Below are positions 2,050-37,865 of a stretch of 42,374 nucleotides of DNA, in pieces. This stretch comes from Candidatus Zixiibacteriota bacterium (GTDB lineage Bacteria; Zixibacteria; MSB-5A5; GN15; FEB-12). The DNA lies in the NCBI GenBank assembly GCA_028715215.1, contig JAQUSF010000017.1, positions 1-42,374 on the forward strand, given 5' to 3'. Made by a program: the position numbers and the translations under genes. Within the stretch, counting starts at the first letter, position 1; each line of letters begins with the position of its first letter. The notes beneath the pieces are model-generated. The model saw nothing but the letters and a program-made list of their open reading frames with translations. It made no database searches and had not been told where the DNA came from.

Positions 2050-3507
2050 TTATAAAACCGGCGGTTTGACGCCGTTAAAAAATAACCAGGATATCAGCAA
2101 GCCTATCCAGATTATGAATCCGAATAAGCAGATAACATAAACCAGGGCCAGCCGGCCGATACCTTCCTGCCAGAGTTTACGGAAATTAGACACCACGCCG
2201 ATTGTGAAGAATGTCATGACGAAGAAAATACTGCGAAAGACATTACCCTGTCCCATCGCGGTCTTAGCCTGACTTACCCAGTTCGGTAGAAGAATGCCAA
2301 TGAGGATAATGACAAAGAACGTGAACATGTAACCGAGGATGAATTTGGGGAACCGGTCCCACATCTGGCGGGCTTTGATTTTTTCGCCGGGAAGGCGTTG
2401 AATTTTAGCCGACCAGATCCAGGCCAGGATGAATGCCCAGACAGCGATAAAGACGTCAATGAATACTTTCACGGTCGTAGTCGTGGCCATGATCCAGCCC
2501 TGCTGGTATTGAATGCCCTGTTCGGCCAGGGCTTTTGTGAGGATCAGTGATTCCGTGATTGCCCCGCTGGCGACTGCAGCACCGTCGGTTTTGACAGCCA
2601 GGCCCATCCAGGCACCGGCCACCAGGGGCTCGTTGTACAAAAAATTCTGAGCGATAAAGGGAAGGAGTATCAGCTCAACCACGGCGAAAATGACTACCAG
2701 GGAGGAAACCATAATAGGGACTACCGGCCGGGCTTTAATTGCCGAACCGGTAGCAATGGCGGCGGAAACACCGCAAATGGAAATCCCGCTGGCCAGCGGA
2801 ACCGCCCATTCCCGGCTGAATTTAAAATATTTCCGGGCGATAAAATATACCAGCGCCCAGTAAATAAGGTAGGCTTCCACGATGGCGCACAAGCCGCGAA
2901 ACATCACTGACGTAGCCAGGCCCAGCTGTTCCGCGGCGGTGATACCGAGGAAACCGCCCAGGATAACAATAGCCGTTTTTATATATAGTTCCGGGCGGAT
3001 AGCTTCGCCCATCACCCGGGAAAATCCGGGCGCAAAATTACCGATGAATAAGCCCGCCAGAAGAGCGATTATATAACCGGCTTCAAGAGTCAAATTTAAC
3101 GACCAGGATATCCCGTAATTATCCAACTGGTTGGGAGTGGCCGCGATGTAAGCCCAGCCGCCGATTATCCAGCAGATATAACTTATGAAAAATACCAGGG
3201 TGAATCCGAGTACGAATTTTTTCAAATTGGCTTTGAGCCAGTATGCCCCGACCATGAAAATAACCAGAAGAAAAAGATAGGTGATGAGCAGGGAAAGTAA
3301 TCCCGGAAGATTGGCATAGTTGCCGGAGGTGGGTTTAAGGGCCATTGCCAGATTAGTCCATACTTTGGTCGTTATTACCCAGCCTAAAATATCCCAATTT
3401 ATAAAAGCAGTTAAAGACAAAAGGAAGATGAATAAACCGATCACGACCGCCAGCCAGTCTTCACTGATTTTTGCTTCTCCTGTTTTTAAGGAAACTTTTG
3501 TGTCCAA
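2050..3507 (-). CDS. YeiH/UPF0324-like putative sulfate exporter family membrane protein
   Basis: 485-aa polytopic protein; 'AGLFIGNF', 'ELYIKTAIVILGGFLGI', 'ISICGVSAAIATGSAIKARP' match the YeiH family pattern; good RBS (AGGAGGGC) upstream. Confidence 0.78.
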   Translation of the reverse strand: MDTKVSLKTGEAKISEDWLAVVIGLFIFLLSLTAFINWDILGWVITTKVWTNLAMALKPTSGNYANLPGLLSLLITYLFLLVIFMVGAYWLKANLKKFVLGFTLVFFISYICWIIGGWAYIAATPNQLDNYGISWSLNLTLEAGYIIALLAGLFIGNFAPGFSRVMGEAIRPELYIKTAIVILGGFLGITAAEQLGLATSVMFRGLCAIVEAYLIYWALVYFIARKYFKFSREWAVPLASGISICGVSAAIATGSAIKARPVVPIMVSSLVVIFAVVELILLPFIAQNFLYNEPLVAGAWMGLAVKTDGAAVASGAITESLILTKALAEQGIQYQQGWIMATTTTVKVFIDVFIAVWAFILAWIWSAKIQRLPGEKIKARQMWDRFPKFILGYMFTFFVIILIGILLPNWVSQAKTAMGQGNVFRSIFFVMTFFTIGVVSNFRKLWQEGIGRLALVYVICLFGFIIWIGLLISWLFFNGVKPPVL

Positions 3508-3579
3508 TTATGCCCTCCTTTAACTTGCCCTCAATGGTTTTTATTCTAATTTGTTAATAGTATGGCATTTCTTTAAAAA

Positions 3580-3597
3580 TAGTGAATTTATTCACTA
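3580..3597. promoter_or_regulatory. Candidate Crp/Fnr-family operator (palindrome)
   Basis: TAGTGAAT-TT-ATTCACTA, 8-bp perfect arms; core GTGA-N6-TCAC with Crp-like half-site spacing; about 80 bp upstream of the YeiH-like start at 3507. Confidence 0.45.
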
Positions 3598-3764
3598 AGA
3601 TTACAGCTCGTTATTTTATTAGTCAAGATTTATAATTGTAAAATAATCAGGTCGGGAAGTACCCGGTTTAGTCGGTCATGAATTAATTTCTTTTAAGCAA
3701 ATTTAATAAACCCGGGAGAATTTTAGTAATATCCGCCAGACAAGGAGCCTTCTCGAAGACAGGT

Positions 3765-4466
3765 TTATTCTTCGACCAGGATGTAACCTTCACTGCGTAC
3801 GGATTTGATCAATTGAGGATTTATACTGTTATCCTGAAGTTTTCTTTTGAGGCGCGATATCCGGTTATCGATACAGCGGTCAAGGCCGTCGTACTCGGTT
3901 TTTAACAGTACCTGGTAAAGGGACTCCCGGGAAACTATGCGGTTTTTGTTTGAAGCCAGAAGCCATAGTAAATCAAACTCGGAAGCGGTCAGATTTATTT
4001 CCCGGTTATCGATCGAGACCACCCGTTTGGTTTTATCGAGCAGGATATTTCCGATTTGCAGGTTAGGCTTTTGGTTATCGGGCGGAATAGCGACTTTGGA
4101 AACATTGGTTTTCATCGAGAAGTGTTTTATCCGGTCAGTCATGATTTGTCCGGTTACCGGAGCCGTTAGGAAATCGTCTGCCCCGCAATCCAGAAGGGCT
4201 TTTTTATATTCGGTATTGTTGTGGGGAGCGATGACAAGAATCGAACCTTCAAAATATCGGCGAATTTTCGAGCATAGTGAAAGCGTCTTTAAAGAAGAGC
4301 CGTCAGTGTTGACTATTAAAACCTGTGGTTTTTCAGTCATTAAAAGGGGCAATATTTTATGGTGTGAGAGCTCCATTGTTGTTTTGATTTCACACTCGTC
4401 CAACCAGTCACCCTCGATATCCGGCAATGAGGGGTCGGTCTTAAGAATTAAGAGTTTAGGTTTCAT
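3765..4466 (-). CDS. OmpR/PhoB-type winged-helix regulator with degenerate receiver domain
   Basis: C-terminal 'IGNILLDKTKRVVSIDNREINLTASEFDLLWLLASNKNRIVSRESLYQVLL..DRCIDNRISRLKRKLQD..LIKSVRSEGYIL' is a Trans_reg_C domain. Start placed at ATG 4466 (MKPKLLILKTD), not the listed 4619. Confidence 0.85.
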   Translation of the reverse strand: MKPKLLILKTDPSLPDIEGDWLDECEIKTTMELSHHKILPLLMTEKPQVLIVNTDGSSLKTLSLCSKIRRYFEGSILVIAPHNNTEYKKALLDCGADDFLTAPVTGQIMTDRIKHFSMKTNVSKVAIPPDNQKPNLQIGNILLDKTKRVVSIDNREINLTASEFDLLWLLASNKNRIVSRESLYQVLLKTEYDGLDRCIDNRISRLKRKLQDNSINPQLIKSVRSEGYILVEE

Positions 4467-4817
4467 ACTTTTCAATAATCCCTGACCTTGGCATATTTTT
4501 CCTAATAAGACAGGCAGCCTGTAAAAAAAGATTAATAGGCGGATAAAAAAAGTGGATTCCGCCAGGTCGAACAGACCTTTGCCATATTGAATAATTGTGA
4601 CAAACAATTTCTTCCGCATCGGCGGTAAAGTGTCACAGGACAGGTTTATATTATCCTGAATTAAACTAATCTATTTACTTTCTGCTGGTTCGGACTGGAA
4701 AACAAAATGCGGGAAACGAACCGCGGTTTTTATAAATCTTGACTTTTCTGATTCCGTATTGTTTGATTTCCTGACTATTAAGGTTTGGAAACCCCGGGAA
4801 GAACGGTTATAGAGGTT

Positions 4818-6032
4818 ATGAATTCAATTGTGCTGGTTGTTTTTATAGTTGTTTATCTGGGGATGATACTGGGACGCCTTCCCTGGCTGGCACTGGACCG
4901 AACCGGGGTAGCTCTTCTGGGCGCTATCCTTCTGATAGTTACCGGGGTGGTGAGCGACCAGCAGCTAATCTCTGCGGTGGATGTACCCACGATTGTTCTC
5001 CTTTTTGGCTTGATGGTTCTTTCCGGGCAGTTTCGTCTGAGTGGCTTTTATTCCAAGCTTGTTCGTCAAATTGGCTGGCTGGATATAACTCCCGGCCAGT
5101 TACTGGCTTTGTTTATTGCCGTGGTTGGGGTGCTTTCGGCGGTTCTGGCTAACGATATTGTCTGTCTGGCCATGACACCGGTGATAATCGAAGTCTGTAT
5201 CAAGCGGCGGCTCGACCCCAAGCCTTTTTTGCTGGCGTTGGCCTGTGCCGCTAATGTCGGCTCGGCAGCCACTCTCATCGGCAACCCGCAGAATATTCTC
5301 ATCGGCCAGGTTCTGAACCTGTCCTTCAGCGGGTATATGCTCGATGCCGTCTTACCCTCGGCGGTCGGCCTGGTCATCACCGGGGCAGTAATTGCCCGCC
5401 TGACAGAGGGAAAATGGAAACGGGAGACAAAAATGCCCCGGATTCAGGCTCCCGCTTTTAACCGGTGGCAGACTTACAAGGGGATGTTTCTGCTGGTCGG
5501 CATCCTGGTCATTTTTTTGGCTAACATCTGGCCTCGTGATATAGTCGCCCTGGCGGTTGCGGCGGTATTGCTCTGTTCCCGAAAAATGCGTTCCCGCGAC
5601 ATGCTGGGTCTTATCGACTGGCAGTTATTAGTGCTGTTTATTTCGCTTTTTGTCGTCAATTATGCCGTTAATGAAACCGGCTATCTGCAGAAATTACAGG
5701 CCGACCTGAGCGGAATGGGGGTGGATATCGGCCTTCCGGCCCCGCTTTTTATAGTATCCGTTTTCTTAAGCAACCTGGTATCGAACGTCCCGGCGGTGAT
5801 GCTGTTGTTGAAGGCTTCGAATCATCCCGCCGCCGGTTCCATACTGGCGCTATCATCTACTTTGGCGGGCAATCTGCTGGTGGTCGGCTCCATCGCCAAT
5901 ATTATCGTCATTGACCAGGCTGCCCGGCTGGGTATCAGGATATCCTGGCGGGAACATGCCCGTATCGGAGTTCCCGTCACTCTTCTGACTCTGGGAGTGG
6001 CCGCTCTCTGGCTGTGGTTTAGGTCATTTTAA
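4818..6032 (+). CDS. SLC13/ArsB-NhaD-type (IT superfamily) ion/anion transporter
   Basis: 'VLANDIVCLAMTPVIIEVC', 'ANVGSAATLIGNPQNILIGQ', 'LSNLVSNVPAVMLLL', 'LSSTLAGNLLVVGSIANIIVID' are hallmark motifs. ATG at 4818 preferred over the TTG at 4785. Confidence 0.85.
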   Translation: MNSIVLVVFIVVYLGMILGRLPWLALDRTGVALLGAILLIVTGVVSDQQLISAVDVPTIVLLFGLMVLSGQFRLSGFYSKLVRQIGWLDITPGQLLALFIAVVGVLSAVLANDIVCLAMTPVIIEVCIKRRLDPKPFLLALACAANVGSAATLIGNPQNILIGQVLNLSFSGYMLDAVLPSAVGLVITGAVIARLTEGKWKRETKMPRIQAPAFNRWQTYKGMFLLVGILVIFLANIWPRDIVALAVAAVLLCSRKMRSRDMLGLIDWQLLVLFISLFVVNYAVNETGYLQKLQADLSGMGVDIGLPAPLFIVSVFLSNLVSNVPAVMLLLKASNHPAAGSILALSSTLAGNLLVVGSIANIIVIDQAARLGIRISWREHARIGVPVTLLTLGVAALWLWFRSF

Positions 6033-27244: not shown

Positions 27245-28576
27245 ATGAATAACAAGGTGCGTTATATCGGCTGGTTGTTTACACTTATTATTTCTTTTTG
27301 TTCTAATATTTTTGGTGATGATTTAATTGCCGGGAAATGTCTGACCTGTCATAAGGAAATGTCGCCGGGACTTTATCAGCAATGGTACAATTCGGCTCAT
27401 GCCGCAATGGATATCAGCTGTATCGATTGCCACCAGGCTCAAAAGGGCGAGGCTGACGCCTTCATGCATGAGGGGGCTCTTATCGCCACCCTGGTAACGC
27501 CTCAAGACTGCGGGCAATGTCACAGCGATGAAGCCGAACAGGTCCAGATGTCCTACCATGCTACGGCCGGGGAAATCCTGGAATCTCAGGATGCCTATCT
27601 GGCGCATGTAGCCGGGGGCGAACCGGCGGCGATTCAGGGATGTGAAAGTTGTCACGGCGCCAAAGTTAAAATTGACCCCTCCTCACCCAATAAACTTTCG
27701 CCTAAAAGCTGGCCAAACTCCGGTATCGGGCGCATCAATCCCGACGGTTCCAAGGGTTCCTGTAACGCCTGTCATACCCGGCACACTTTTTCGGTAGCCC
27801 AGGCGCGCCAGCCCGAAGCCTGTTCGAAATGTCACCTCGGTCCGGACCATCCCCAGCGCGAAGTATATGAAGAATCCAAACACGGCAATGCCTACTACAC
27901 TCATATCAAAGATATGAACCTGGAAGCCGACCGCTGGATTGCGGGCATGGACTATTTCGAAGCGCCCACCTGCACCTCCTGTCATATGTCCGCCACCGTT
28001 TCATTGCCGGTGACCCACGATGTCGGGCAACGCCTGAGCTGGACCCTGCGACCGCCGATTTCGGTACATAAGGATAACTGGCAGCAGAAACGCGCGAATA
28101 TGCTGACTGTCTGCTCCGGCTGCCATAGTGCTTCTTTTGCAAACGGTCATTATTACCAGTTTGATGCCGTGGTGGAACTCTATAATGAAAAATTCGCCAA
28201 ACCCGCCACTGAAATCATGAACCTGGTCATCAAGAACAACCTCCTGGAAAACCCGGCATCATTCAGTAACGAAATCGAATGGGTTTACTGGGAATTGTGG
28301 CATCATGAGGGTCGGCGGATGCGGCACGGAGCCTCCATGATGGGTCCCGATTACACCTGGTGGCACGGCGCTTACGACGTCGCCCATAATTTTTATTTCA
28401 AGTTTATTCCCGAAGCCCAAAAATATGGTAATGCCGAAGTCAACACCTATATTGACAACCTGATAAAGAATGACCCGATGCATTCCTGGCTGGTTACCGC
28501 CACCGAGAATCTGAAAAAAGATATCCGTTCGGGAGAGATGCAGAAAATTTATCGTAAGATGTTCGAGCAGAGATAA
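27245..28576 (+). CDS. Octaheme c-type cytochrome, hydroxylamine oxidoreductase (HAO) family
   Basis: Eight CxxCH motifs (CLTCH, CIDCH, CGQCH, CESCH, CNACH, CSKCH, CTSCH, CSGCH), signal peptide, and HAO-like 'YWELWHHEGRRMRHGASMMGPDYTWWHGAYDVAHNFY'. Confidence 0.9.
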   Translation: MNNKVRYIGWLFTLIISFCSNIFGDDLIAGKCLTCHKEMSPGLYQQWYNSAHAAMDISCIDCHQAQKGEADAFMHEGALIATLVTPQDCGQCHSDEAEQVQMSYHATAGEILESQDAYLAHVAGGEPAAIQGCESCHGAKVKIDPSSPNKLSPKSWPNSGIGRINPDGSKGSCNACHTRHTFSVAQARQPEACSKCHLGPDHPQREVYEESKHGNAYYTHIKDMNLEADRWIAGMDYFEAPTCTSCHMSATVSLPVTHDVGQRLSWTLRPPISVHKDNWQQKRANMLTVCSGCHSASFANGHYYQFDAVVELYNEKFAKPATEIMNLVIKNNLLENPASFSNEIEWVYWELWHHEGRRMRHGASMMGPDYTWWHGAYDVAHNFYFKFIPEAQKYGNAEVNTYIDNLIKNDPMHSWLVTATENLKKDIRSGEMQKIYRKMFEQR

Positions 28577-28587
28577 AAAAAACAGGC

Positions 28588-30081
28588 ATGTTTAACAAGT
28601 ATCTGTCATTCATCCGCCGGGTCTCGGTAACGGGTCTCGGCAAGGGGGGAGTAATTCTTACCACCTCCTCGTTCATCACCCTGGTGATACTGGAACTGGC
28701 CAGGATGCTGGGACTGGTTACCAATGCCTATGTCGGGCTGGTGACGTATCTGCTGTTTCCGTTCCTGTTTGTCGTGGGTTTGCTCTTAATTCCCCTGGGC
28801 TGGTACCAGCTCCGGAAGAAAACCGGTCTTTCAACTCGCCGGCTCCTGGAAGAAAAATTCGGTCCTGACGAAACCCGGGGTTCCTTAACCGGTTCCCGTC
28901 TTTTCAGGTTTATTACTTTGCTCACGGTCATCAATGTTTTTTTCCTGGTGGCAATCAGCACCCAAATGCTCGGATTTATGGATAGTGCGTATTTTTGCGG
29001 CACGGCCTGTCATTCGGTGATGAATCCGGAGTGGGTAACCTACCAACAGTCACCCCACGCCCGGGTCAGATGCGTACAATGCCATGTCGGCGAGGGCGCG
29101 GAAGCTTTGATAGACAGCAAACTTAATGGTCTCTGGCAGATTATCTCTGTAACTTTTAATCTTTATGAAAGACCGATACCCACCCCCGTCAGGCAGCTTC
29201 GCCCGGCCCGTGAAACCTGCGAAAAATGTCACTGGCCGGAAAAATTTTACGGCAGTCGCCTGATGACCCGTTATAACTATCAGAGCGATGAAGAATCGTC
29301 TCTCTTATATACGACACTGAATTTGAAAATTGACGCCGGTAAAGCCGGCGCGAAAGCCGGTATCCACTGGCATATCGGTCAGGAGAACGAGGTTCGCTAT
29401 ACCTCGGTGGGTGACCGGCGGGAGATGATGCTCCGGGTCGAAGCTCGTCGTCCCGATGGCCGTTATCATCGCTATTATAACCGGAACGCAACAGCTCACA
29501 GCGCCGAAGATGTTGTGGAACGGTCGATGGATTGCGTGGACTGTCATAACCGGGCTACCCACATATACGAAGAACCGGAACGGGCTGTTGATGACCGTAT
29601 TAAAAGGGGTCTTTTAGATTTGAGCTTGCCCTATTTGAAAAGGGAAGCCCTGGCGGCGATTACCCGCAATTATACCGACAGCACCGAGGCTTACGACGGC
29701 ATTGCACAATCTCTCCGTAATTTCTATATGCGTAACTACCCCGAACTGGAACGGGAAAAAACGACGATTATTGATTCGGCCGTAATGGTTCTGCGGGACA
29801 TTTACAGTCGCAATATTCATAGGTCTATGAATATCGGGTGGGATACTTACGCCAGCCATATTGGTCACAAGGGTAATACCGGTTGTTTCCGCTGTCACAA
29901 TCCGGCTCTGGTTGATTCCGCCGGCGCGGCAATATCTTATGATTGCACCCTTTGCCACTCAATTCTGGCCGACAACCATAAAGAGCCGTTCCAGTTTCTC
30001 GAGCCGGCTGAAACCGGGGACAGGGATTATCAGAGGCACCGTTACCTGAAAGATGAATTTTTGAATTCTTTTAAAAAGTAA
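28588..30081 (+). CDS. NapC/NirT/NrfH-like membrane-anchored multiheme cytochrome c
   Basis: N-terminal TM helices; 'YFCGTACHSVMNPEWVTYQQSPHARVRCVQCHVGEGA', CEKCH, CVDCH, CFRCH, CTLCH (five CxxCH plus one CxxxCH). Confidence 0.88.
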   Translation: MFNKYLSFIRRVSVTGLGKGGVILTTSSFITLVILELARMLGLVTNAYVGLVTYLLFPFLFVVGLLLIPLGWYQLRKKTGLSTRRLLEEKFGPDETRGSLTGSRLFRFITLLTVINVFFLVAISTQMLGFMDSAYFCGTACHSVMNPEWVTYQQSPHARVRCVQCHVGEGAEALIDSKLNGLWQIISVTFNLYERPIPTPVRQLRPARETCEKCHWPEKFYGSRLMTRYNYQSDEESSLLYTTLNLKIDAGKAGAKAGIHWHIGQENEVRYTSVGDRREMMLRVEARRPDGRYHRYYNRNATAHSAEDVVERSMDCVDCHNRATHIYEEPERAVDDRIKRGLLDLSLPYLKREALAAITRNYTDSTEAYDGIAQSLRNFYMRNYPELEREKTTIIDSAVMVLRDIYSRNIHRSMNIGWDTYASHIGHKGNTGCFRCHNPALVDSAGAAISYDCTLCHSILADNHKEPFQFLEPAETGDRDYQRHRYLKDEFLNSFKK

Positions 30082-30235: not shown

Positions 30236-30258
30236 GCGGCACTTGATGGCCGCTTTTT
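30236..30258 (+). terminator. Hairpin plus T5 just upstream of SPFH gene (terminator or attenuator)
   Basis: GCGGC-ACTTGATG-GCCGC-TTTTT. Confidence 0.55.
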
Positions 30259-30284
30259 ACTTTTTTCTGAAGGAGTGTGTAATC

Positions 30285-31697
30285 GTGAGTCCCCTCGTCT
30301 ATATTTTTATTGCCGTTGTAGTCATTGTCGCGGCGGGTTTGTTCGTGTATTTCAAGAACTACCGTAAAGTCGGTCCCAATGAAGTCCTGATTATCTCCGG
30401 CGGCAAGAAACGTATGATAACCTTGCCTGACGGAACGCAGAAAGAAGTCGGTTATCGTATTCGTATCGGCGGCGGCACGTTTGTGAAACCGTTTATCGAG
30501 CAGGCCCAGGTTCTGCCCCTGGAAATTATCCCCATGAATTTTCAAATTGACGACGCTATTTCGACCAATGGTATTCGGTGTACGGTACGCGGCACGGCGG
30601 AAGTGAAAATTGCCGGTGATGATGCCTCGATTCATCTTGCTTCCGAGCAGTTTCTGGGTAAACCGCTGACGGATATTCGTGATGTGGCTCTGAGAACACT
30701 GGAAGGTTCTTCGCGGGCTTTGATTGGCACGATGAATCTGGAACTGATGAATAAAAACCGCAAGGAATTTGTGGCGAAGGTTTTTGACGATGTCAACACT
30801 TATTTTTCCAATATGGGACTCAGGTTGCTTTCTTATAACCTGAAAGAGATTACTGACCCTTCCGGTTACCTCGAAGCCCTGGGGAAACCGCGCATTGTCC
30901 AGGCCCGGCGGGATGCCGAGGTGGCCGAAGCTGAAGCCGCCCGTGATGCCATTATTAAGTCGGCGGATGCTAAAAAGGAAGGGGATATAGCCAAGATTCA
31001 TGCGGAGACCGAAGTTGCCCGGGTGAATCAGGATTTTGAACTGAAAAAAGCCGAGCTGGCGGCGACTCTTAACCGTAAAAAAGCCGATGCTGATTTCTCT
31101 TATGAACTGGAACGCCATAAACTTAATCAGGAACTGAAAAAAGAAGAAGGCAAAGTCAAATTAATCGAAAAAGATGCCGCGGTCGAACTGGAAAAGAAAG
31201 AAATCCTGCGGGTGGAGCAGGAATTGGAAGCCAGAGTACGTAAACCCGCCGTAGCCGAGCAGTTCCGCCTGGAAGCCGAGGCTCGCGGTATGGCTGAAGC
31301 CAAGCGCATCCAGGGTGAGGTTGAAGCTCAACTGGTCAAAGAGGTCGGAGCGGCGGAAGCTGAAATCATGCGTAAAAAAGCTGAATCATGGAATGCCTAT
31401 TCCCAGCCGGCACTGCTTCAGATGATGTATGAAAAACTGCCGGAACTGGCCCGGGAGATGGCGGCACCGGTTTCCAAAATCGATAAAATCGTCATGGTTT
31501 CCAACGATGGTAAACTGGGGACATCCAAAATTACCGGCGAGATGGCGGCCATGATGAGTCAGTTGCCTGAGGTGATTAAATCTCTGACCGGCTGCGACCT
31601 CGAGGAATGGCTCAAGAATTTAGTCAGTAAAAACAAAGGCGACAAGCCGGAAATATCATCAAAGCCGGGCAAGGTCGGCGGTTCGGACAAGGAATAG
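30285..31697 (+). CDS. Flotillin-like SPFH domain membrane protein
   Basis: N-terminal TM, 'YRKVGPNEVLIISGGKK', long EA-rich coiled coil; GTG start at 30285 with AAGGAG upstream. Confidence 0.88.
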   Translation: MSPLVYIFIAVVVIVAAGLFVYFKNYRKVGPNEVLIISGGKKRMITLPDGTQKEVGYRIRIGGGTFVKPFIEQAQVLPLEIIPMNFQIDDAISTNGIRCTVRGTAEVKIAGDDASIHLASEQFLGKPLTDIRDVALRTLEGSSRALIGTMNLELMNKNRKEFVAKVFDDVNTYFSNMGLRLLSYNLKEITDPSGYLEALGKPRIVQARRDAEVAEAEAARDAIIKSADAKKEGDIAKIHAETEVARVNQDFELKKAELAATLNRKKADADFSYELERHKLNQELKKEEGKVKLIEKDAAVELEKKEILRVEQELEARVRKPAVAEQFRLEAEARGMAEAKRIQGEVEAQLVKEVGAAEAEIMRKKAESWNAYSQPALLQMMYEKLPELAREMAAPVSKIDKIVMVSNDGKLGTSKITGEMAAMMSQLPEVIKSLTGCDLEEWLKNLVSKNKGDKPEISSKPGKVGGSDKE

Positions 31698-31703
31698 TTA
31701 GCT

Positions 31704-34049
31704 ATGATTTCCAACAGGATTGGCCGCCTGGAGCTCTCACCGACCTTGCGCATAACCGCCAAGGCCAAAGCCATGAAAGCCGAGGGGATTGATGTTATCG
31801 ATTTCTCGGTCGGGGAACCGGATTTTCCCACCCCTCATGATATCAAAGAAGCGGCCAAGAAAGCCCTCGACGATAATTTTACCGGCTATACGGCTAACGA
31901 CGGTATTCCGGAATTAAAAGATGCCATCCACCTTCGCTTCAAGGAAGACCATGGCCTGCAGTATTCCCGTAATGAAATAATCGTCTCCAGCGGGGCGAAG
32001 CAATGTTTGTATAACCTTTTCGTTTCCATTCTCAACCGCGACGAGGAAGTAATAATCCCGGCGCCGTACTGGGTATCCTATCCCCAGCAGGTTTTGCTGG
32101 TCAAGGGTAAGCCGGTTATCGTCCCCACCCGCGAGGAGAACGGGTTCCGCCTTACACCGGCGGAATTAAAAGCCCATATAAATTTCAATACCAAGGCGCT
32201 GGTTATCAACAATCCCTCCAATCCCACCGGCAGTGCCTACACCCGTGACCAGCTTCAGGAATTGTGCGAGCTGGCCGTTAATGAAGGGCTGTTGATTGTT
32301 GCCGACGAAATATATGAAAAAATTATCTATGGCGATTACCGCTTTACATCGGTGGCGTCTCTCAGCGATAAAATAAAACAGCGGACGGTCATAATAAATG
32401 GTGTTTCCAAAGCTTATTCCATGACCGGCTGGCGGATTGGTTATGCGGCGGGTCCCCGGGAACTGATTTCCGCCATGAATATCGTTCAGTCACATACGAC
32501 CTCTAACGCCAACTCCATTGCCCAGAAAGCCGCCGCGGAAGCCCTGAGCGGTCACCGGGATGAAATCAACCGCATGGTCGCCGAGTTCCAGGCCCGGCGT
32601 AACTACATGCTCAGCAAACTTCGGCGCATCCCCGGTATTTCCTGTTATGAACCGCAGGGGGCGTTTTATCTTTTCCCCAACGCCGCCAATTATTACAATA
32701 CCGAATACGCCGGGATGAAAATCCGGAACTCGTACGGTTTGTCTTATTATCTACTCAAGGAAGCGGCGGTGGCGGTCGTGCCGGGCAGTGCTTTTGGCGC
32801 CGAAGAAAACATTCGCCTTTCGTATTCAACCTCGATGGAAAAGATAGAGACCGGCACCGACCGCATTATCGAAGCGATGGCCCGTTTGAAGGAATCGCCG
32901 AAATACAAGCGCATCGCCTTGCAGAATTTCATGACACATCCCCGTGGTACGACCGAGGCCAACACCGCCATTTCGGTCGAGGAGCGCGATGCCCTGGTGC
33001 AGGAAGCAGAAGCGGCGTTGCCCTTCGACCAGTATTTCGAATGGAATGCCAATATCAACGGTATCATCATCCAGTTACGCACCAACGTGCCGCACCTTTA
33101 TGATTTCTGGGTGGAAAACTGGTATCCGGCGCAACTCGAATCCGACCTTGAACCGCACGGTATCATTTATGCCGTCGACGGCGTTCCCGGGCGTAAACCG
33201 TATGCCTATTACAACCCGGATATGAAAACGGCGATTCTTTTCAATACGACCTATTACGGCCAGGTTCGGAACTGGGCGCTGGGGATGGTAGCCCATATCA
33301 GTGAACGTCTTCTTGATGTTCACGGTTTGCGTGCCGCCTGTCTTGACTACAACGGCAAGGGTCTGGCGTTGATTGGACCCAAAGGGTTGAAACGGGGCTC
33401 CATATTCTTCCGCCTTCTGGAAAACGAAAAAGCCCGTTTCCTCAGCAATGACTGGGTTTTTGTCCGTTACCGCGGTCAGGAAGCGGTAGCCGATGCCCCC
33501 GAAAGAAAATTCTACATCAAAACCGACATTACCCGGCAGTTGCCCCGCTATGAGCGGATATTTGACCGCAGTAAATGTGAAAATGTCGTTACCTCGCGTT
33601 CTGACTGGACTAATATGAAGGAGCTCGAGGATGAATGTCCGCTCGATTTGGGCGAACCTTATTGTTACTGGGGGTCCAGTGAATCCCGGGCGCTGGTTGA
33701 CCCGGCCTGGATTGGCGGACCACAGCGTTGTATCAAACGGACCCGGTTGAAAACCGTGGTTTTCTTGACCTGTGAACCCAACGCCCCGGTAGTGGAAAAA
33801 ATGAAAGATAACGAGGCATTGGATTTTGTCACCGCCGGCAAATACCGGGTACCGGACGGTGTGGGTATGGGACCTTTTAAAACCCAGCCTTTCTTTAATC
33901 CTTATATGCTGGTCTCAAGCGTTGACCAGGAAGATTTACAACGGCGGAATTTCCACCAGCTTTTCCGGGTTGCCGCCGCTTATAAGGTTAATATTGCCCC
34001 CGTACCGCCGGAGGTGCTTAAAACCCGTATTCTTGAATTGATAGGGTAG
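31704..34049 (+). CDS. Fusion: aspartate-type aminotransferase (residues ~1-400) + degenerate PEPCK-fold domain (~410-781)
   Basis: AAT: 'IDFSVGEPDFPTP', 'INNPSNPTG', 'INGVSKAYSMTGWRIGY'. C-terminal: 'FNTTYYGQVRNWALGMVAHI..GLALIGPKGLKRGSIFF..SNDWVFVR..RKFYIKTD', parallel to the PEPCK-like protein at 34487. No internal stop. Confidence 0.82.
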   Translation: MISNRIGRLELSPTLRITAKAKAMKAEGIDVIDFSVGEPDFPTPHDIKEAAKKALDDNFTGYTANDGIPELKDAIHLRFKEDHGLQYSRNEIIVSSGAKQCLYNLFVSILNRDEEVIIPAPYWVSYPQQVLLVKGKPVIVPTREENGFRLTPAELKAHINFNTKALVINNPSNPTGSAYTRDQLQELCELAVNEGLLIVADEIYEKIIYGDYRFTSVASLSDKIKQRTVIINGVSKAYSMTGWRIGYAAGPRELISAMNIVQSHTTSNANSIAQKAAAEALSGHRDEINRMVAEFQARRNYMLSKLRRIPGISCYEPQGAFYLFPNAANYYNTEYAGMKIRNSYGLSYYLLKEAAVAVVPGSAFGAEENIRLSYSTSMEKIETGTDRIIEAMARLKESPKYKRIALQNFMTHPRGTTEANTAISVEERDALVQEAEAALPFDQYFEWNANINGIIIQLRTNVPHLYDFWVENWYPAQLESDLEPHGIIYAVDGVPGRKPYAYYNPDMKTAILFNTTYYGQVRNWALGMVAHISERLLDVHGLRAACLDYNGKGLALIGPKGLKRGSIFFRLLENEKARFLSNDWVFVRYRGQEAVADAPERKFYIKTDITRQLPRYERIFDRSKCENVVTSRSDWTNMKELEDECPLDLGEPYCYWGSSESRALVDPAWIGGPQRCIKRTRLKTVVFLTCEPNAPVVEKMKDNEALDFVTAGKYRVPDGVGMGPFKTQPFFNPYMLVSSVDQEDLQRRNFHQLFRVAAAYKVNIAPVPPEVLKTRILELIG

Positions 34050-34057
34050 GAGAGATT

Positions 34058-34480
34058 ATGGCCAATACTCTTGGAATAATAAAACCGGATGGTGTTCGAC
34101 GCAAACTGGTCGGGAAAATTATCAGCCGTATTGAGACTGCCGGCTTGATTATTCGTGGTCTGAGAGTCCTGAAACTCTCCCGTTCCGAAGCCGAGAAATT
34201 CTACGCCGTACACGAAGGTAAACCGTTTTTTAATTCCCTGGTGGATTTTATGACCTCCGGACCCATAGTGGTCATGGTCATCGGCGGGCATGGGGCTGTC
34301 GAACGCTGGCGCGATTTGATGGGTGCTACTGACCCGGCCAAGTCCCGCTACAATACCCTCCGGCGGGAATTCGGTACCTCGGTGGAAAAAAATGTCGTCC
34401 ACGGTTCGGACGCCGAGGATACGGCCAAAGTTGAAATTTCTTTTTTCTTTAAAGAGAAGGATATTCTGCCCAAGGAATGA
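34058..34480 (+). CDS. ndk: Nucleoside diphosphate kinase
   Basis: 'LGIIKPDGVRRKLVGKIISRIE', 'GPIVVMVIGG', 'NVVHGSDAEDTAKVEISFFF'. Confidence 0.97.
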   Translation: MANTLGIIKPDGVRRKLVGKIISRIETAGLIIRGLRVLKLSRSEAEKFYAVHEGKPFFNSLVDFMTSGPIVVMVIGGHGAVERWRDLMGATDPAKSRYNTLRREFGTSVEKNVVHGSDAEDTAKVEISFFFKEKDILPKE

Positions 34481-34486
34481 AGTGAC

Positions 34487-36334
34487 ATGTCGGACGCCCT
34501 GTATGATACCCAGTTATATGCCCGGTTCTACCGGGATTTGCAAAGACGCCTGAACGGCCCCAATATAAAGGATGTTTCGCTGGAAGAACTTCGCGAACCC
34601 TCCTGTCAGACGGGAACGCAGACCAGATTCGGTTCCTGGGGCTGGCGGTCGGCGGTATCCAGCCGTATCGCCGAAAAAACCTGTAATCTTGGTTCTGAAG
34701 CGGTGCGGGAATTCAACCTGACCGATGTCAAAAAGGCCATTATTGCCAAAGCCCCTGAGGAACTCGACAAGGTTCTGCATCTTATGGAAACTCTGCCGAT
34801 CGTTCGCCTGCGGCGGCAGATGGGTGATAATCCCGAGTATAATCCCAAGTGTAACCTTTACATATCGGTGGCGGATTTAAAAAATTACCGCCTGGCTTAC
34901 ATGTGGGGGCATACGATGGGACCGGTTACCAAAGCTCCCGGACCGGAGTTCATTCTAATTCATATTCCCGAGGAACATCAAATCCGTCAACAGGCTCTTA
35001 TCCTGCCCGATTATAATGTGACCATCGTGCTGGGGTCGGACTATATGGGCGAAGACAAGAAGGGTTTTCTGCGTAACGGCATGCACGCTGCGGGAGCTCT
35101 TAATATGCTGGGTCTGCATGCCGGTACCAAAGTGGTTATTATTCGCGATGTCAAAACCGGCAAGCTTAAAAAATACGGCGTTTTCCTGTTCGGACTTTCA
35201 GCGACCGGCAAAAGTACCTGGTCGTGTCATCAACTGGGCCTGGACTGGTCGAAAGGCGAACGAACTCTCGTCTGCCAGGATGATATCTGCTTTTTGAAAA
35301 GCGACGGCTCCGCGTACGGTTCGGAACAGAATTATTTTGTCAAGACCGATGTGGACAGTAAGCTCCAGGAAGCGATGTACAACGCCCTGATACACAAGAG
35401 CGCTCTTTACGAAAACGTCATGATAAATGCCAATGGTCAGCCGGATTTTCTCGACGAGAATCTGTGCGGCAACGGCCGGGCTATCATCATGCGCAAGCAG
35501 TTGAAAATAAAACGGGGCCGCTGGCCGATGGCCATGAAAAATATCTGGTATCCCTCGATTAATCTGCCACCGGCGGATGACCTTGACGGCCTGGTGTTTG
35601 CCTTTATCACCCGGCGTAACACCATCATGACTTTTTCCCAGCAGTTGACGCCCATTCAGGGAGTGCTGGCTTATCTCTGGGGGGAATCGAGTCACAGTTA
35701 CGCCTCCAATCCCGCTAAAGCCGGGGAGTCGGTTCGCACGGTCGGTACGGATCCGTTTATTGTCGGTTCCCGGGGGGCCAAGGTCAATCATTTTTACCGG
35801 ATTGTTATGGACCTGGCGGCTAATTACCCGGACAAAATACATTTCTTCCAGTACAACACCGGCGGGATGGGGGAAATTATCGAAAACCGCGACGGAGTTA
35901 AAAAAATTATTCGCAAAACCGAACGGGTACCTATTGCCACCATGGCGGCGATTCAAAGAGGCGACCTGCGCGGCACCAATAAATACCAGCAGAGTATTTT
36001 CGGTACGGAAACTATTTATCATGCCGAAGGCGCCGACCTCAGTGAATACCGTCCGGAAAAATATTATTCCCAGGAAGAAATCAACAGATATCTGCGCGAC
36101 CTGGTCGACGGACGCCGTAAATTTACCGAAAAAGTAGCTGAGGAAGGCCTCATGCCGGAGATTTTAAAAGCGGCCGAGGATTCCTATCGTATTGCCGGGG
36201 AAAAAGAATCCCGGGTTTTTATTCCCTCGAAAAAAACCGAGCCGCCGCCCCCCAGGGAAAAACCCGTGACTCGTTTGACCGACTGGAAACCCAATCCCCG
36301 TCTGAACCGTGACCGCGGTTGGCGTTATGGTTGA
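34487..36334 (+). CDS. ATP-dependent phosphoenolpyruvate carboxykinase-like protein (divergent)
   Basis: 'LGSDYMGEDKKGFLRN' (cf. GTxYxGEIKK), P-loop 'FGLSATGKSTWS', 'CQDDICFLKSDGSAYGSEQNYFVKTD'. Confidence 0.78.
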   Translation: MSDALYDTQLYARFYRDLQRRLNGPNIKDVSLEELREPSCQTGTQTRFGSWGWRSAVSSRIAEKTCNLGSEAVREFNLTDVKKAIIAKAPEELDKVLHLMETLPIVRLRRQMGDNPEYNPKCNLYISVADLKNYRLAYMWGHTMGPVTKAPGPEFILIHIPEEHQIRQQALILPDYNVTIVLGSDYMGEDKKGFLRNGMHAAGALNMLGLHAGTKVVIIRDVKTGKLKKYGVFLFGLSATGKSTWSCHQLGLDWSKGERTLVCQDDICFLKSDGSAYGSEQNYFVKTDVDSKLQEAMYNALIHKSALYENVMINANGQPDFLDENLCGNGRAIIMRKQLKIKRGRWPMAMKNIWYPSINLPPADDLDGLVFAFITRRNTIMTFSQQLTPIQGVLAYLWGESSHSYASNPAKAGESVRTVGTDPFIVGSRGAKVNHFYRIVMDLAANYPDKIHFFQYNTGGMGEIIENRDGVKKIIRKTERVPIATMAAIQRGDLRGTNKYQQSIFGTETIYHAEGADLSEYRPEKYYSQEEINRYLRDLVDGRRKFTEKVAEEGLMPEILKAAEDSYRIAGEKESRVFIPSKKTEPPPPREKPVTRLTDWKPNPRLNRDRGWRYG

Positions 36335-36596: not shown

Positions 36597-37865
36597 ATGT
36601 CACATTTTGGGAAAATAAGCCTGCTTGTAATAAGCATTGTGTTTATCTCGGTCATGTCACCGGTCGCGGACGACAGCGAGACTTATTTTGATTTTCTAAA
36701 AGCCACCTATAACCGGCATGACAGGCAACTGAATGATTTTCTGAAGGCTGAGTTTGAGCTTTTTATCGCATTCTACCCGGAAAGCGAGTTTGTTCCGGAA
36801 GCTTCGTATCTTTTGGCTCAGACCTTTCTGGAGCGAAAGGCTGAACACGAAGGTTTTGCCCTTTTGATGAAAGCTCTCTATTTGTACCCCGACAATCCGG
36901 TGAGAACCTCGGTGGTGGCTGAAGCCCAGCGTATTGTGGCTACCAATTCATCTTACAAGCGGCAACAGGGTGAGCTTCGGAAGATAATCGATGGTGAGTT
37001 CCCGGGAGGCGAGATGGCGGAGAGATTTTACCGTTATCTGAAGTTCCTGAGGGAACTCGATGACCGTAAACTGTACGGCTGGACGCTGGGTGAGTATTAC
37101 GAATTCATCGAGCGCTTCAGGGATGACAGCCGGGTGGAACAGATACATCGCTGGCTGGGTGATATTTATGCTTCGATGGGTGAAGCCCAGGCGGCGGTAG
37201 CCGCATATCAGAAATATGAGAAACTTTTTCCTGTCAATAAGAACCTGCCCTACGTGATTATTAATCGCGCTAATGTTCTAAATGAAGACCTTAAGGATTA
37301 CGCCCTGGCCAACTCCCTTTTGACTCAGGTGATTGAAAACTACCCGGAGACCAAGTATGCCAGTACGGCCATGTTCTCCCGGGCGAAAATAAAGGCGGAA
37401 CGGTTTCGCGACTACGACGGCGCCATTGCCGATTACCGGCAATTGATTAAACAAGACCCCCAGCATGAAAAAGCGGTTGAAGCGCTGTTCGAAATAGCTT
37501 CCATAAACGTAAATCGTCTTCGAGCGTTGCGGTCGGCGATTGACACTTATAACGAAGTGGTTCAGAAATATCCGGAAAGCCCGCGCGGGGTCGAGGCGCT
37601 GAAAGAATCGGCCGCTCTTTACCAGAAAATGAAAGACCCTTATTCCGCCGCCAAACAATATGCCCGGATTGCCGAATTATACCCGGACCATGCCGAAGCC
37701 CCCGCCATGCTTTTCGAGGCTGGCGAACAGGCTCTGGGGAAAATTAAGGATTTTCAACTGGCCAGAGAATATTATAATTTGCTGATTGAAAAGTATCCTG
37801 GAAATGTTTATGCCGATAAAGCACAACAGCGAATTATCCGGATTAATGAAAAGCAGGGGCCATAA
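36597..37865 (+). CDS. Secreted TPR-repeat protein (YbgF/BamD-like)
   Basis: Signal peptide followed by repeated TPR units ('YPESEFVPEASYLLAQTFLER', 'YPETKYASTAMFSRAKI', 'YPESPRGVEALKESAALY', 'YPDHAEAPAMLFEAGE'). Confidence 0.83.
   Translation: MSHFGKISLLVISIVFISVMSPVADDSETYFDFLKATYNRHDRQLNDFLKAEFELFIAFYPESEFVPEASYLLAQTFLERKAEHEGFALLMKALYLYPDNPVRTSVVAEAQRIVATNSSYKRQQGELRKIIDGEFPGGEMAERFYRYLKFLRELDDRKLYGWTLGEYYEFIERFRDDSRVEQIHRWLGDIYASMGEAQAAVAAYQKYEKLFPVNKNLPYVIINRANVLNEDLKDYALANSLLTQVIENYPETKYASTAMFSRAKIKAERFRDYDGAIADYRQLIKQDPQHEKAVEALFEIASINVNRLRALRSAIDTYNEVVQKYPESPRGVEALKESAALYQKMKDPYSAAKQYARIAELYPDHAEAPAMLFEAGEQALGKIKDFQLAREYYNLLIEKYPGNVYADKAQQRIIRINEKQGP

Follow-up and report, generated by a model that had tools for sequence, protein, structure and literature searches.

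HPr kinase and PEPCK have been grouped in a single kinase family (PMC1079889), and PEPCK has been described as able to act as a protein kinase (PMC9138534). Class Ib aspartate aminotransferases (AATs) are known from several structures, such as PDB 6f77, 1bjw/1bkg and the Arabidopsis aspartate/prephenate aminotransferase 5wmh, and these solved relatives have lengths of about 370–475 aa. Both folds are thus already known. In the open-access literature, judged by titles and abstracts, no description was found of an AAT/PEPCK fusion or of a pseudo-PEPCK, nor any paper on Zixibacteria with an aminotransferase and a PEPCK, in agreement with the preliminary description of this locus, which had known of no such fusion. 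By the same titles and abstracts, the papers found likewise describe no association of the fusion with two further genes, encoding an SPFH protein and a PEPCK paralogue. What would be new here is the fusion itself, the pseudo-PEPCK state and the link between the three genes.

Architecture and spread of the fusion

The window, meaning the whole stretch of 42,374 nucleotides analysed, comes from a Candidatus Zixiibacteriota bacterium (contig JAQUSF010000017.1). At positions 31704–34049 (+) it contains an ORF with an ATG start that encodes 781 aa without an internal stop, confirming the single uninterrupted frame reported in the preliminary description. Residues 1–396 (31704..32891, +) constitute an AAT domain of PLP fold-type I, class Ib-like. 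PF00155 (Aminotran_1_2) was found to match residues 30–388 over model positions 2–361 of 361 (E 1.7e-78), and the NCBIfam aspartate transaminase model NF004769 to match the N-terminal part with an E of 3.4e-131 (438 bits). The best solved relative of this half is aspartate aminotransferase A (PDB 6f77, E 4e-107). The active-site lysine, K236, sits in SKAYSMTGWRIGY and is invariant in an alignment of 37 fused homologues, as are D201, Y204, N173, R244 and R371. The aminotransferase is thus complete and has its catalytic lysine, as had been claimed, and judged from the aligned residues its active site is intact. From its homology to 6f77, the protein is predicted to be a working aspartate aminotransferase; this prediction is part of the best overall explanation given below. 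The host has a second AAT-like enzyme, unfused, of 393 aa and 38% identical, which is encoded beside a transketolase-like gene (L115:1325-2506, G000:C84).

The AAT domain is followed by an interdomain linker at about residues 397–414 (32892..32945, +), which is poorly ordered: pLDDT falls under 50 at residues 400–413 when the whole protein is modelled. With a pTM of 0.50, this model does not predict how the two domains are placed relative to each other. A search of genome contigs yielded 78 loci and, after removal of near-copies, 42 fused proteins, that of the window included. The search for the fusion in other genomes, which had been proposed as a check, thus found it in several phyla, with at least 40 distinct fused homologues in MAGs of Zixibacteria, Calditrichota, Ignavibacteria/Bacteroidetes and Aminicenantes. 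Wherever the contig permits, these four groups have the AAT and the domain behind it in a single frame of about 780 aa, and two loci (L045 and L106) have shorter frames that look like local frameshifts. In a set of 99 relatives of the host, each of the 27 AATs listed with an identity of 63% or more over most of the AAT has a frame that continues into the domain and is short only at contig ends; identity then drops to 46% in the next AATs, whose frames measure about 400 aa. Since all close relatives are in frame with the domain, this AAT clade is fused wherever seen.

The window belongs to a fragmented metagenome assembly of 167 contigs, a point in favour of an assembly error or a read-through that joined two independent genes. 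However, tens of genomes that were assembled independently have the same fusion boundary, among them the chromosome-level CP070756, CP070674, CP070766 and CP070777, and no close AAT relative was found unfused. Assembly error was rejected on these grounds, and an artefact of either kind is considered extremely improbable. Homologues consistently split into two genes had been named as the finding that would speak against the fusion; the close homologues are instead consistently fused.

The PEPCK-fold domain and its lost catalytic residues

Residues from about 415 to 781 (32946..34046, +) form a catalytically degenerate domain of PEPCK/HprK fold, assigned by AlphaFold, Foldseek, an HprK profile match and hhalign. 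The domain alone gave no sequence match in Pfam, NCBIfam, PHROGs or PDB sequences. At the gathering score of PF01293 the window domain is without a match, and the neighbouring protein encoded at 34487–36334 passes with 81.8 bits. No HprK model of Pfam or NCBIfam reached its cut-off with the window domain; for one fused homologue the best hpr-ser score was 23.2 bits against a cut-off of 240, and for one standalone homologue the best Pfam score was 20 against a cut-off of 33.3. The AlphaFold model of the domain, built with 57 homologues, has a pLDDT of 91.2 and a pTM of 0.89. The best 50 Foldseek matches listed from the PDB were all ATP- or GTP-PEPCKs (E 1.9e-17 to 2.8e-13), E. coli, Thermus and rat PEPCK among them, with TM values by query of 0.62–0.75 and nearly the whole domain covered. 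According to this model the C-terminal half has the PEPCK fold, and the proposed structure check thus returned no fold unlike PEPCK.

In a comparison by hhalign, the profile of the domain family was found to match the neighbouring PEPCK-like paralogue with a probability of 96% (E 1.6e-9, 238 columns), whereas a two-sequence BLAST gave only an E of 0.002. The paired motifs are YYGQVRN/DYMGEDKKG, IGPKGLKRGS/FGLSATGKS, SNDWVFVR/QDDICFLK and FYIKTD/FVKTD. These are identical to the pairs from which a parallel with the neighbouring protein had been drawn by eye, so that the parallel is not due to chance. Near the P-loop the family profile also matches HPr kinases, at best with an E of 0.003, and the ENV motif, a helix aligned with SPEQ, and NTG are kept as PEPCK-like C-terminal elements.

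Outside the fusion, 18 standalone homologues of 357–442 aa were found in Deltaproteobacteria/Nitrospirae MAGs, Acetothermia and Planctomycetota, and constitute a family not named in the current Pfam and NCBIfam libraries. All 18 contain an intact Walker A, APTG[TA]GK[ST]T, then SDD, ADD or GDD, plus IHG[SA]. The members tested match the PEPCK subfamily model NF006821 (about 5e-11 to 3e-13) and, weakly, HprK models, and in the tree a single branch with a support of 100/100 separates fused from standalone proteins. The intact Walker A, SDD and His, together with the NF006821 match and the HprK profile match, argue for ancestry from an active kinase-type domain. The fused domain would descend from a PEPCK/HprK-type P-loop kinase domain, with the phosphotransfer chemistry lost in the fused lineage; this descent belongs to the same overall explanation, and the evolutionary steps that lead from an active, kinase-type domain to an inactive state have clear intermediates.

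In Deltaproteobacteria, the standalone gene is often located in a conserved row of Ppx/GppA, guaB, guaA, LOG family, kinase and S49 peptidase (L105:922-8042; L083, L086, L089), which suggests either a connection with guanine nucleotide metabolism or mere housekeeping synteny. In one Zixibacteria-class genome that lacks the fusion (G088:C23, L146:1420-3144), a standalone protein of 574 aa is encoded, with an intact Walker A (APTGTGKST), HSIHGA, SDD and large insertions.

The most conserved block by per-column conservation in the 37 fused proteins, residues 444–492 (YFEWNANINGIIIQLRTNVPHLYDFWVENWYP...EPHGIIYAVD; 33033..33179, +), lies in the N-terminal part of the PEPCK-fold domain and is largely common to the standalone homologues in the alignment. 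The catalytic motifs were located from alignments, with the E. coli numbering of K212, K213, Y207, K254, D269 and R65 taken from PDB mutant titles; H232 and R333 likewise follow the numbering of E. coli PEPCK. TTYYGQVRNW (33246..33275, +) is the equivalent of the PEPCK Y207..K212-K213 motif. Its Y518 and R522 are invariant in fused proteins, and the position of R522 is Lys in standalone proteins. Finer mapping indicated that the Lys replaced by R522 is the equivalent of K212, not K213; the position of K213, a Mn ligand, is not conserved as Lys even in standalone proteins and is N523 in the window. The catalytic His (H232 of PEPCK, HG motif of HprK) is replaced by an invariant Arg, R543 (33330..33332, +), and both this Arg and R522 are found in 37/37 full-length fused proteins. 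SND at residues 581–583 (33444..33452, +) is the equivalent of the standalone SDD and of PEPCK D268-D269, with the second acid kept. Thus, the Mn-ligand positions K213, H232 and D269 are N523, R543 and D583 in the window, the Asp alone being kept.

The Walker A of the window protein, GPKGLKRGS at residues 558–566 (33375..33401, +), is degenerate relative to the standalone APTGTGKST and does not fit the P-loop pattern GxxxxGK[ST]. With His replaced by Arg and Walker A broken, the window protein has neither the catalytic HG nor the Walker A of HPr kinase/phosphorylase. The P-loop is broken in 48 of 54 fused-side domain sequences, taking GPKGTKKTE-like forms in most phyla and GPKGLKRGS-like forms in Zixibacteria. 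The reading that all fused domains are without Walker A was rejected, since the remaining six keep one that looks complete and may thus bind nucleotide. The preliminary description had taken the change of GKS to RGS as a sign of a non-catalytic or repurposed PEPCK domain. Structure and homologues support this view with a refinement: the loss exceeds the P-loop, extending to His and the Lys-212 equivalent, yet some fused proteins, a minority, have kept Walker A intact.

An atypical active kinase, which would bind nucleotide via the remodelled P-loop and phosphorylate a metabolite or a protein, which might be the AAT attached to it, would be in keeping with the complete Walker A of these six domains, with the Walker Lys and Thr kept in most non-Zixibacteria fused proteins (GPKGTKKTE; Lys in 27/37), with the one carboxylate of the DD pair that is kept, and with the protein-kinase precedent of PEPCK. 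However, no fused protein has kept the catalytic His, which is Arg even where Walker A is intact; in place of the second P-loop Gly most have Lys, Arg, His, Ser or Asn; and Zixibacteria have neither the Walker Lys nor the Thr. An active kinase is accordingly regarded as unlikely.

Selection was estimated against the nearest homologue, L031. The dN/dS was 0.067/1.13 (~0.06) for the AAT and 0.084/1.01 (~0.08) for the domain, which is thus under purifying selection. In the 37 fused proteins Y518, R522, R543, E626 and N627 are invariant and position 583 has an acid, Asp or Glu, throughout, whereas the P-loop is variable at positions 560, 563, 565 and 566. Such an invariant pocket with a variable P-loop fits a binding function that would do without metal or ATP chemistry. 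A variable Cys-rich insertion, possibly a metal site, follows KCENV (window 33570-33680; equivalents in L101 and L103). Many fused proteins have several Cys there, as do the standalone proteins of Acetothermia/Planctomycetota, and the insertion is deleted in Deltaproteobacteria.

Partner genes and proposed role

In the tight operon that contains the fusion, an SPFH/flotillin-family gene (30243..31697, +; PF01145 4.5e-19, PF15975 4.2e-11) lies directly upstream of the fusion across a gap of 6 bases and precedes it in dozens of loci across phyla. Downstream, a nucleoside diphosphate kinase (NDK) gene (34058..34480, +; PF00334 2.4e-53) stands between the fusion and the paralogue, a position directly behind the fusion that it has only in Zixibacteria-type loci. 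The divergent PEPCK paralogue itself (34487..36334, +; 615 aa; PF01293 5.8e-23) contains all the main catalytic motifs, DYMGEDKKG, LHAGTK, GLSATGKST, QDD, ENV and NGR, whose residues are invariant in 15 sequences, and scores under the PEPCK subfamily cut-off. It was rejected as the main PEPCK of the cell, because a canonical PEPCK is encoded elsewhere in the host genome (G000:C129, E 2.3e-225). The neighbouring PEPCK-like protein of the preliminary description is therefore better described as a paralogue that co-occurs with the fusion than as an ordinary PEPCK. Directly upstream of the operon, window 27245-30081 encodes two multihaem c-type cytochromes (Multi-haem_cyto; NrfH-like, 497 aa), and downstream of the paralogue a TPR protein of YbgF/BamD type is encoded at 36597-37865. 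A defence-system library gave no match to the three operon proteins, and a promoter and terminator scan gave counts only slightly above those of shuffled sequence.

Among the 99 host relatives, 28 have the fusion and 71 are without it. The paralogue was found in 27/28 genomes with the fusion, in some of them on a different contig, and in 0/71 genomes without it (Fisher p 2e-23, shared ancestry ignored). The SPFH gene was found in 27/28 vs 2/71, with p-values that likewise ignore phylogeny; the sole fusion genome without it (G012) is a fragmented assembly in which the fusion is cut at a contig end. This strong co-occurrence makes the catalytically complete paralogue a direct candidate partner. 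In a second sample, of 24 fusion genomes examined by locus (22 outside Zixibacteria), the paralogue is present in 13/24 and absent in 11/24, mostly in one Aminicenantes/Saccharicenans clade. It is thus not an obligatory partner. At one locus (L042:about 3300-5154, G043:C252) the paralogue is split into two overlapping frames, a probable frameshift in the gene or the assembly.

The co-occurrence and operon structure, the PEPCK fold of both partners, and the position of the most conserved domain block outside the catalytic motifs would all be accounted for if the domain were a scaffold only, a ligand-free pseudo-subunit that pairs PEPCK-fold to PEPCK-fold with the active paralogue, with SPFH, or with both, so that oxaloacetate from the AAT passes to the paralogue. 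This reading is considered doubtful, since the 11 sampled fusion genomes without the paralogue still keep the domain, and the conserved block is common to standalone homologues whose genomes are also without the paralogue.

The most likely reading, held at about even confidence, is an AAT with a PEPCK-derived domain that does not transfer phosphate and serves in ligand sensing and assembly. Since several phyla have kept the fusion along with two partner genes, the domain is probably a sensor or docking module that is part of the enzyme, and not a sequencing accident. We infer that an anionic metabolite of the oxaloacetate/PEP node would bind in the rewired pocket (Tyr518, Arg522, Arg543, the acid at 583 and Glu626-Asn627) with neither metal nor ATP hydrolysis, and that the ligand-bound domain would tune the transaminase by allostery. 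Alternatively, the domain may dock the AAT to the presumably active PEPCK paralogue and to the SPFH membrane protein. The conserved fusion joins two central-metabolism folds with one common metabolite and might couple the oxaloacetate node, as the preliminary description had suggested. More tentatively, the SPFH scaffold, the pseudo-PEPCK transaminase and the active paralogue might form one complex, in which the pseudoenzyme would sense oxaloacetate, or channel it, between aspartate and PEP. If such a complex exists, it would represent an undescribed metabolic module in several uncultured phyla and a PEPCK pseudoenzyme turned into an allosteric subunit of another enzyme.

Comparison with known systems

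What distinguishes the fused protein from its relatives? Residues 1–396 match class Ib AATs over their full length, including the catalytic Lys and the substrate-binding Arg, but the fused clade adds a PEPCK-fold domain of 385 aa in all close relatives. The added domain resembles ATP-PEPCK (PF01293; E. coli PckA, Thermus PckA) in overall fold over most of its length, with TM values by query of about 0.64–0.75, and in the motif order Y-G-x-x-R/K, P-loop, acid, ENV, SPEQ-like helix and NTG. It differs in being about 370 aa rather than about 530 aa, in falling under the Pfam gathering score, and in its broken P-loop, with K212 replaced by Arg, K213 mostly by Ser or Asn and H232 by Arg, and with the R333 position variable. 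The likeness to HPr kinase/phosphorylase (PF07475, TIGR00679) and to HprK-related kinases A/B (TIGR04352, TIGR04355) is a local profile match around HG...GxxxxGKS...DD; scores are far under the cut-offs, about 60 residues match, and the domain has longer PEPCK-like N- and C-terminal parts. The closest homologues outside the fusion belong to the unnamed standalone kinase family, with 37–40% identity over the full length for most members and 32–38% for two deep ones. Unlike the fused domain, these proteins keep Walker A, SDD and His, are without an AAT, and occur in genomes in which the paralogue was found in 0/14 tested.
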